A DNA stretch of 64,000 bases from Robinsoniella peoriensis (GTDB lineage Bacteria; Bacillota; Clostridia; Lachnospirales; Lachnospiraceae), in assembly GCF_000797495.1 (NCBI RefSeq), contig NZ_JTGN01000002.1, positions 186,001-250,000 on the forward strand. The letters run 5' to 3'. Under the pieces are notes generated by a model. That model was not told the DNA's origin. It ran no database searches and saw only the letters and a list, made by a program, of their open reading frames with translations. How positions within the stretch are numbered: the stretch's first letter is position 1; each line of letters starts with the position of its first letter. The translations under genes and the position numbers were made by a program. Below, piece by piece: positions 24,403-39,978 of the stretch.

Positions 24403-24427
24403 TAGTAGTACAGCGAACAGTTTCTTA

Positions 24428-24520
24428 AATTGAGGTTTTGCTGAGTAATGACGCTTTGTAGATGCAGGTAGTGTACGGAAAGAGAAGGGGACGGAGCCCA
24501 TGCCAGTTCCCCACATTCTG
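24428..24520 (+). repeat. Partial copy of the mosaic inverted-repeat element
   Basis: GAGTAATGACGCTTTGTAGA and the following bases to GAGAAGGGG match the outer arms of the element at 39108-39820. They are joined directly to GACGGAGCCCATGCCAGT, which in the large element lies next to the right arm in the opposite relative orientation. It therefore looks like an end-to-end deletion derivative. Confidence 0.65.
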
Positions 24521-32716: not shown

Positions 32717-32893
32717 CGATATCTAAAGAGCACAGTTTCTAAGCGGGTACTGAACTGGGAAATGCATCAGGCTTTCACAGTGAATACCCGCCGCTCCAGA
32801 GCGTATTTTAACAATAGAGCTGTCGGGCATATGTATATATTCACGTTTTTCGAATAAATTATAAGTAAAAAGAAAGATGTGTAGGAGTAAGCT

Positions 32894-37551: not shown

Positions 37552-37555
37552 GATG

Positions 37556-39106
37556 ATGCGGATTCTGGAATTGCAGATCAGAAATTTTGGAAAGTTCAGG
37601 GATCAGATAATTACTTTCCATGAGGGGATTAATATCATCTACGGGGAAAATGAAATGGGAAAAAGCACGATCCATGCATTTATCAGGGGAATGCTGTTTG
37701 GCATTGATAAAATGCGTGGGAGAGCTGCCAGGAATGATGAATACACCATACGCCAGCCGTGGGATAATCCGGGGTATTTTGCCGGTGCAATGCGGTTTGA
37801 AAGCGGTGGAAAGATCTTCCGTATAGAAAGAAATTTTAATAAATTAGAAAAAAAGGCTCTGCTGATCTGTGAGTCCGACGGGGAAGAGCTGGATATTATA
37901 CATGGAGACCTTCAAATGCTGATGGAAGGGCTGAATGAAACTGCATTTCGAAATACCATATTTATTCGTCAGAATTCCAGTAAAACGGATGAGGGGCTGG
38001 CGGCAGAGCTTCGAAATTATATGGCTAATTTTGAAAGCGCAGGAGATGATGAAATTAATGTTGTCAAAGCAATTGAAACATTAAAAGATAAGCAGCGGGA
38101 ATGCGCTGTAAAAAAGAAGCAGCAGGATGAAGTCCGCAGTGAACGTCTGGAACAGGTGCAGATTAAACTGGATTATGTAGAACAGGAGATCCGTGGGCTG
38201 CAAAAACAGCAGGAAGATGGTACTATAAAACTTCAGGAATTACGAAGCATGGAGGCAAGAGAAGGGCTCGCGGAACAGGAAAAAAGAGCCCGCATGGAGG
38301 CCAGAAACAGGGAAGAAATCAAAATGCTGAAAATCCGGCAGATCTGCTTGTTCACTGCGGCAGGTATTGCAGTGCTGATGGGGATTCTGCTTAAACCGTT
38401 ATGGCTGAAAATGGCATTGGGAATCGCCGCTGTATTGTTATTTGCTTATTGCTGGTATACAAATCGTTATTCCAGAAACAGGGAGCAGGAAAGCCGCCAG
38501 TCCGGCAGCGGAGCGTCCAAAGCCTCTCAGAAAATGGTTTGGAATCTGGAAAGGATACAGGAAGAATTGCATGAAAAGAGGGTCTTGCTTGAAAATCTCA
38601 AAGAAAACCAGGCGGACATTCTGGCAGAGAAAGCAGACAGCAATCGGATCCAAAACGATATAGAGGCTCTGGAGATTGCCATATCAACCATACAGGACAT
38701 TTCCAGAGAGATATATAAGGAATCGGCAAGAAAGCTGAACCATACGGCTTCAGATATCTTAAAAGAGGTAACCGGAGGAAATTATACCAGCATCTATCTG
38801 GATGCTAATATGCAGGTAAGAATTAATACGCCTCAAAAACTATTGTATCTGGAACAGGTCAGCAGGGGAACGATGGATCAGATTTACTTTGCTCTTAGAA
38901 TGGCTGCAGCTCAGCTTTTTCTAAGCGGCGAGAAAATGCCGCTGATATTTGATGATGCATTTGTAATGTACGATGAACAGCGGCTGAAAAGAACCCTTAA
39001 ATGGCTTTATAAGAGTGATAGCCAGGTATTGTTATTTACCTGCCATAAAAGAGAGGGAGCAATTCTGGAAGAGATAAGAAGAGAAGAATGCTTTGTTCAA
39101 ATATAA
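37556..39106 (+). CDS. SbcC/YhaN-like AAA ATPase with internal membrane hairpin
   Basis: ABC/SMC-type ATPase of 516 residues. N-terminal half: Walker A GENEMGKSTIHAF and the IFIRQN Q-loop region. C-terminal half: VSRGTMDQIYFALRMA signature and Walker B MPLIFDDAFVMYD. The coiled-coil insert (about 170-270 and 310-390) is short for SbcC (usually about 1000 residues). Two adjacent hydrophobic segments at about 262-300 (LFTAAGIAVLMGILL and ALGIAAVLLFAYCWY) sit at the coil tip, so the complex may be tethered to the membrane, as known for YhaN relatives. ATG 37556 has better spacing to GAGG than ATG 37553. Confidence 0.85.
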   Translation: MRILELQIRNFGKFRDQIITFHEGINIIYGENEMGKSTIHAFIRGMLFGIDKMRGRAARNDEYTIRQPWDNPGYFAGAMRFESGGKIFRIERNFNKLEKKALLICESDGEELDIIHGDLQMLMEGLNETAFRNTIFIRQNSSKTDEGLAAELRNYMANFESAGDDEINVVKAIETLKDKQRECAVKKKQQDEVRSERLEQVQIKLDYVEQEIRGLQKQQEDGTIKLQELRSMEAREGLAEQEKRARMEARNREEIKMLKIRQICLFTAAGIAVLMGILLKPLWLKMALGIAAVLLFAYCWYTNRYSRNREQESRQSGSGASKASQKMVWNLERIQEELHEKRVLLENLKENQADILAEKADSNRIQNDIEALEIAISTIQDISREIYKESARKLNHTASDILKEVTGGNYTSIYLDANMQVRINTPQKLLYLEQVSRGTMDQIYFALRMAAAQLFLSGEKMPLIFDDAFVMYDEQRLKRTLKWLYKSDSQVLLFTCHKREGAILEEIRREECFVQI

Positions 39107-39107
39107 A

Positions 39108-39820
39108 TTTGGGTTTCGCTGATTAAGAGACGCTTTGTAGATGTAGGCAGTGTACGGAAAGAGAAGGGGGCGGACCAGGACATTGGTTTGGAAGACTTAC
39201 CGCAGAACTGGCATTTTCTAACCTTCCCGGAGCACTTTTTGGCGGCACGCGGGCATTCGCTCCGAAATCCTGATGCATTTCGCAGCTCACTGCCCGCTTA
39301 CAATCCGATGGGAGCCAGTCGAATTGTATCCGCCAAAAAGCACACCGGGAAGATAAGTAAATGCTCAGCTCTGCTATACGCCTTCCAAACCAATGTCCTG
39401 GTCCGCCCCCTTCTCTTTCCGAGATAGCATTCGTTGATTCAAAGCTGGTTTTCTCAGCATGGTGGGCCCCCGGGGTTGTGGCATGCTGGACGCTATTGGC
39501 TGAAAGCAGCTTGATCTTATCACTGTAGTGGGATTCTTCATTCTAATACAGTATATTTATGGTTATAGTACTTACATCCAGTTACTTCTGTGATAGGAAA
39601 GCAAGTAAAATTAAACTTTCTCCCAATTCATACTAAACTGTCCAAACACACTCTGCTGAATCCAAAAACGAACAGCTGGTCACAGCCCCGGGGTCTCCAC
39701 TCGGCTGAGAAAACCAGTTCTGCGGCCAGCTGACGGAGCCCATGCCAGTTTCCCACACCCATCTTTCCATACACTACCTACATCTACAAAGCGTCATTAC
39801 TCAACAAAACCCAAATATAT
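39108..39820. mobile_element. Mosaic inverted-repeat element without transposase (MITE-like)
   Basis: About 710 bp bounded by imperfect inverted arms of about 60 bp (39108-39168 and 39755-39820) sharing GACGCTTTGTAGATGTAGG. Inside, a first foldback has 40-bp perfect arms (39155-39194 and 39382-39421) that continue imperfectly for another 50 bp each. A second foldback has arms starting CTGGTTTTCTCAGC (39445-39458) and ending GCTGAGAAAACCAG (39704-39717). No transposase is encoded, and a target-site duplication was not certain. A partial copy lies at 24428-24520 and a weak one near 45545. It could be a non-autonomous mobile element or a large structured RNA. Confidence 0.6.
39155..39421. repeat. 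Long hairpin with 40-bp perfect arms
   Basis: Left arm 39155-39194 (CGGAAAGAGAAGG...GGTTTGGAAG) is the exact reverse complement of 39382-39421. Complementarity goes on with about 70 percent identity to around 39245 and 39331 (for example TTCCCGG...CTTTTTGGCGG against CCGCCAAAAAG...CCGGGAA). Confidence 0.85.
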
Positions 39821-39978
39821 TTAACTTGCATGGAGTCTCTGGATAGCAAAAAAATAGGACTATTGGATTCTGCCCAATATTAGTCCCATTTTTTGACTGT
39901 ATATTTACTCACATTCTCGTTTTTCAAAAACAAAGTATCCGCTATATACAAGCTTAACAGACACTTTGCAAATTCACA

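Follow-up and report, generated by a model that had tools for sequence, protein, structure and literature searches.

A large palindromic repeat with IS701-type ends in the genome of Robinsoniella peoriensis

A gene-less palindromic repeat was found at positions 39103-39827 of the window, the whole 64,000-nucleotide stretch of Robinsoniella peoriensis DNA that was analysed. We consider it probable (roughly 78%) that this copy is a degenerate non-autonomous transposable element of the type II MITE kind, mobilised in trans by a DDE transposase of the IS701 family. The element is real, repeated, mobile in origin and unusually large and structured. Judged from the sequences, its link with IS701 consists of the ends (and target site) only.

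Structure of the window copy and of complete copies

The window copy is built of nested hairpins, comprising 56-bp arms and both an outer and a central stem, and an inverted-repeat search of it returned six inverted pairs. The pair 39155-39210/39366-39421 (56 nt, 91%) is perfect over its outer 40 nt. The outer pair 39129-39162/39762-39795 (34 nt, 94%) is extended by the pair 39103-39126/39797-39820, which together make outer arms of ~60 bp, and further pairs lie at 39211-39245/39330-39364 and 39440-39475/39687-39722. Folding of the copy as single-stranded DNA gave an energy of -188.6 kcal/mol, compared with a mean of -88.2 kcal/mol for shuffled sequences (z -19.7), and none of the 20 shuffles folded as well. 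No ORF of at least 80 aa was found within the copy. The first-pass annotation had described a gene-free region bounded by inverted arms of roughly 60 bp and holding two further foldbacks, one with 40-bp perfect arms; the outer stem was recovered in two blocks, together with the left-arm hairpin, a further hairpin nested in it, and the central stem. The nested repeats within its borders were confirmed, but these borders do not enclose a whole element, the window piece being a truncated relative of a 0.9-1.15-kb element. The features are as follows.

39103-39827, no strand: decayed, end-truncated palindromic element, inserted at the upstream gene's stop codon
39103-39162, + strand: left half of the outer stem (inverted pairs), starting TAAATTTGGGTTTCGCTGA; the same shoulder occurs in ~130 ends
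39762-39820, - strand: right half of the outer stem (inverted pairs)
39155-39421, + strand: left-arm hairpin, its arms perfect over 40 bp, with further hairpins nested at the apex (39211-39364)
39440-39475, + strand: left strand of the central stem (CAAAGCTGGTTTTCTCAGC), in other copies the insertion site of an IS1182-like IS
39476-39686, no strand: variable non-coding centre, type 1, common to the window copy and loci L050 and L071
39687-39722, - strand: right strand of the central stem (inverted pair)
39707-39820, - strand: right-arm remnant, its hairpin having lost the apical part (~265 bp) relative to full copies
39813-39839, - strand: partial type-B outer linker (AAATATATTTAACTTGCATGGAGTCTC), with the IS701-type end beyond it missing
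24403-24515, + strand: second fragment within the window, representing one end of the element and retaining an IS701-type terminus (reverse complement TTCGCTGTACTA) beside CTAT
32739-32791, no strand: internal element fragment in the window (53 bp, 91%)

The upstream gene (37553-39106), on whose stop codon the copy begins, is presumably AAA/SbcC-like, and the convergent gene that follows the copy (40383-39979) is one that we take to be hemerythrin-like, both names coming from a reading of the translations.

Complete copies are 0.9-1.15 kb long and contain two inverted arms of ~380 bp (left arm ~360-390 bp), each of which is itself a hairpin. Their order is outer linker, shoulder TAAATTTGGGTTTAGCTGA, left arm, variable centre and right arm, and the centre is closed by the stem CAAAGCTGGTTTTCTCAGC/GCTGAGAAAACCAGCTTTG. 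The right arm is an inverted version of the left arm, to which it is ~78% similar; the apical hairpins are common to both arms, and the basal stems are unrelated, each being self-complementary. The window copy showed a 90-94% match to L050 and L071, relative to which ~265 bp of the right-arm hairpin and both true ends are gone.

Two variants of this architecture were observed. In some left arms (L118, L122, L128, L199 and L201) an apical loop holds an additional 25-bp hairpin (AAGTACTGCATTTTGCAATGCAGTACT), at columns 215-239 of left-arm alignment A1, which looks as if palindromes had been added stepwise. Short derivatives of 150-360 bp, barely more than two shoulders, occur at L260 (1674-1831), L267 (3608-3802) and L256 (~360 bp), and constitute small hairpin versions of the element.

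Copy number and host range

A sequence search of the host genome (7.39 Mb, 32 contigs) returned 182 matches to the window copy, so that the earlier description of the repeat as dispersed holds, also for the two fragments within the window. At least 57 loci kept at least one long arm, besides many fragments, and both long arms were kept in 27. The arm-shoulder pattern occurred 140 times in the genome and the reversed control not once. Pneumococcal BOX/RUP and REP/BIME are likewise dispersed, palindromic, modular, gene-less repeats, but the element is much larger and has the ends and duplications of an IS.

A search of 396 other genomes of the host family (>330 genera) gave no match to the element. 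Scanning 84,980 species genomes, from which the host's own and possibly records near it were excluded, and a viral collection for element patterns detected nothing related, the two hits being chance-like, and plasmid and phage collections searched with the element or with an IS701-family IS from another genus of the family (L218) gave no match. As far as can be seen, the repeat is confined to the R. peoriensis genome among the genomes searched.

A stretch of ~48 bp in the centre (window positions 39534-39581) is shared, at 80-84%, with a motif in at least four other genera, where it lies upstream of unrelated genes and often at contig ends (L021, L023-L025, L027, L028, L030). On the reverse strand this motif encodes the peptide MDNSLLAVRDINHKYIVVE, the window version of which reads KYYNHKYTVLE*. 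It is possibly a decayed coding remnant or coding end, or a shared mobile end. The 50-bp matches of relatives to the element centre were rejected as copies of the element, as they represent a motif upstream of unrelated genes.

Ends, target sites and candidate movers

Intact copies have the termini TACTACAGCGAAC...GTTCGCTGTAGTA beside CTAG or CTAA. The outer linkers beyond the shoulder are of three types (A, B and C), each of which ends in GTTCGCTGTAGTA followed by YTAR, and YTAR was present directly outside 25 of 43 long-form ends, compared with a background of 1.07%. Matching 4-bp flanks on both sides were found in L051 (CTAA), L052 (CTAG) and L073 (CTAG), and also in L126 if the short end form is allowed. 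Several copies mismatch, and the identity of the flanks in only 4 of ~10 copies with both ends readable counts against an IS701-driven origin. Each of the genome's nine type-B linkers lies next to a core, which argues that the linkers belong to the element.

The L218 IS belongs to the IS701 family (PF13546, E 1.4e-43) and is bordered as CTAG-TACTACAGCGAAC...GTTCGCTGTAGTA-CTAG, its ends being identical at 13/13 positions to the 13-bp terminal repeat of the element. The sole PF13546 (DDE_5, IS701-type) locus in the host genome is a broken gene on contig 11 (L123/L208), and the right end of this relic (...GTTCGCTGTAGTA-CTAG) is the same as that of the element. The L218 gene is interrupted, and this and the broken state of the host's only IS701 gene count against the preferred explanation. 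Members of the IS701 family generate a duplication of exactly four bp and have the end consensus ---YACT-Y--YR (De Palmenaer et al. 2008, PMC2266710), which the element end TACTACAGCG fits. The element thus resembles the family in its terminal repeat and 4-bp YTAR duplication, but it has no transposase and its interior is unrelated. The first-pass annotation had recognised no described family, which remains true of the repeat itself but not of its terminal repeats, which belong to IS701. Its suggestion of a non-autonomous mobile element gains support from the number of loci, the sharp ends, the IS701 terminal repeat and the CTAG/CTAA flanks.

Prokaryotic type II MITEs (QMITE1/2, Chunjie, Nezha) are 50-500 bp long (review PMC10969869). 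Like them, the element is gene-less, present in many copies, intergenic and structured, resembles an autonomous IS only at its ends, and has decayed copies without ends. Since the likeness to IS701 is confined to the ends, which are present in full-length copies and both missing from the window copy, the type II definition of that review fits. Unlike these MITEs, it reaches 1.15 kb and has two self-folding inverted arms; full copies therefore exceed the usual size range, but size was not counted as defining, and descent was judged by the ends. IS701 is not named as a MITE partner in the review, and no report of IS701-driven MITEs turned up among the papers searched. Eukaryotic foldback elements such as Tm1 (PMC3169594) are also gene-less and have long inverted arms with internal structure, but the element differs from them in being bacterial, in its IS701-type ends and in having nested hairpins rather than tandem subrepeats.

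Two other origins were weighed. About 30% of 132 ends, in a classification that is rough because linker match scores overlap the random range, stop at TAAATTT or TATATTT, beyond which lies unrelated sequence lacking a linker or IS701 terminus. IS701 alone leaves these short TA ends unexplained, which counts against the preferred explanation; they are either old deletions, or the core is also able to move at TA sites. The core might even be an independent element that inserts at TA (ends TA-AATTTGGGTTTAGCTGA) by means of an unseen transposase and that acquired IS701-type ends by inserting into several small IS701 MITEs. This would account for the sharp stop of about one-third of the ends, which is seen on both sides in L058, L059, L046 and L066, but it is made unlikely by type-B linkers never occurring without a core and by the A/A and C/C linkers, which would require insertion at the exact centre of perfect palindromes. 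Moreover, no gene flanked by ends of this kind was detected, and an autonomous element with short TA ends was absent from 20 further regions. It is hardly credible that the gene-less copies derive from an element of the IS1182 type whose terminal repeats are very long, as which L117 could be read. L117 does contain a 526-aa IS1182-like transposase in the element centre, within an IS of ~1.7 kb, and 6 of 10 examined loci of this IS lie in the central stem of such elements; however, the IS is bounded by ends of its own (GGCCACTGAAAAAG.../...TTTTTCAGTG), lies in unrelated DNA at the other four loci, and left no trace in type 1 and type 2 centres. Its ends were not found at the borders of the repeat. 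Since the IS also inserts elsewhere, the element is its target and is not defined by it, and IS1182 was rejected as the driver because of the IS copies outside the element.

The mover of the element would thus be an IS701 transposase. Under this IS701-driven reading, a complete element with 13-bp terminal repeats (TACTACAGCGAAC) would insert at YTAR, mostly CTAG or CTAA, creating the 4-bp target duplication, and the mobile unit would consist of the two inverted nested-hairpin arms flanking a short non-coding centre.

Other mobile sequences were observed around the element. Copies of the IS1182-like IS, which favors the central stem of the palindromic elements (L117:1520-3180 and the contig ends of C7, C10, C14, C15, C23, C25 and C30), break the assembly. 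A second gene-less repeat or MITE of ~134 bp is present at 64 places in the genome (e.g. C2:205825-205958, L215), and its ends, GAGCGTGTTTTAAAATT, are shared with an IS5/IS427-like IS (C11, C9, C19, C10, C13). This repeat and the IS5-like IS often lie directly beside an end of the palindromic element, with which they have the CTAG in common.

Maintenance of the stems

The left-arm hairpin is conserved across 41 left arms, in which 98.5% of the cells of 112 pairs were paired and both sides had changed in 20 pairs. Co-varying cells numbered 142, compared with 52 in shuffled and 0-14 in slid controls, although the copies are related and these are not independent events. The changes occurred partly in blocks (e.g. 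CCAGGACATTGG/CCAATGTCCTGG versus CCATGGCAGGCG/CGCCTGCCATGG), and some double changes were private to a single copy (columns 81/320 and 72/329). Hybrids that break the blocks, such as L043 and L057, show exchange between copies. The first-pass annotation took the perfect arms as a sign of recent origin or active maintenance, and this was borne out in part, in that the stems co-vary across copies.

The first-pass annotation had also raised a large structured RNA. Strong folding and compensatory changes would be expected, too, if the copies were a family of genes for such a non-coding RNA, spread by transposition and with its fold under selection, and private substitutions in paired columns were about half those in unpaired columns. 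Several results make such a family highly improbable. Nothing in the whole window reached the gathering score of an Rfam 15 family, the repeat is missing from all relatives searched, and the gene context of the copies (17 tandem, 10 convergent, 6 divergent) is about random; a promoter or terminator role was likewise rejected, gene orientation around the copies being without bias. Among one-sided changes, A-C outnumbered G-U in each of the two arm sets (25 versus 10 and 18 versus 8, counted by columns), and these sets read opposite strands of the element. A selected RNA would favor G-U over A-C on one strand; the absence of this preference favors upkeep at the DNA level. Template switching is a known route to the homogenization of inverted arms (PMC7202029, PMC8604942), which makes DNA-level upkeep the simpler reading. 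We infer that stem complementarity is kept at the DNA level rather than through an RNA function. Upkeep might involve template switching or arm-to-arm correction, or the hairpin may be needed in transposition. More tentatively, and at somewhat less than even odds, the repeat could be a bacterial foldback element, its arms kept complementary by frequent DNA-level arm-to-arm copying (template switching) with changes in blocks, possibly with a second, TA-directed movement of the core.

These results suggest that an IS701 transposase can have gene-less passengers as large as this multi-hairpin DNA element, which occupies at least 57 loci in one genome. The dozens of copies with matched stem changes provide a natural data set on how bacteria correct or maintain long inverted repeats, and the element serves as a warning that covariation by itself is no proof of a structured RNA.
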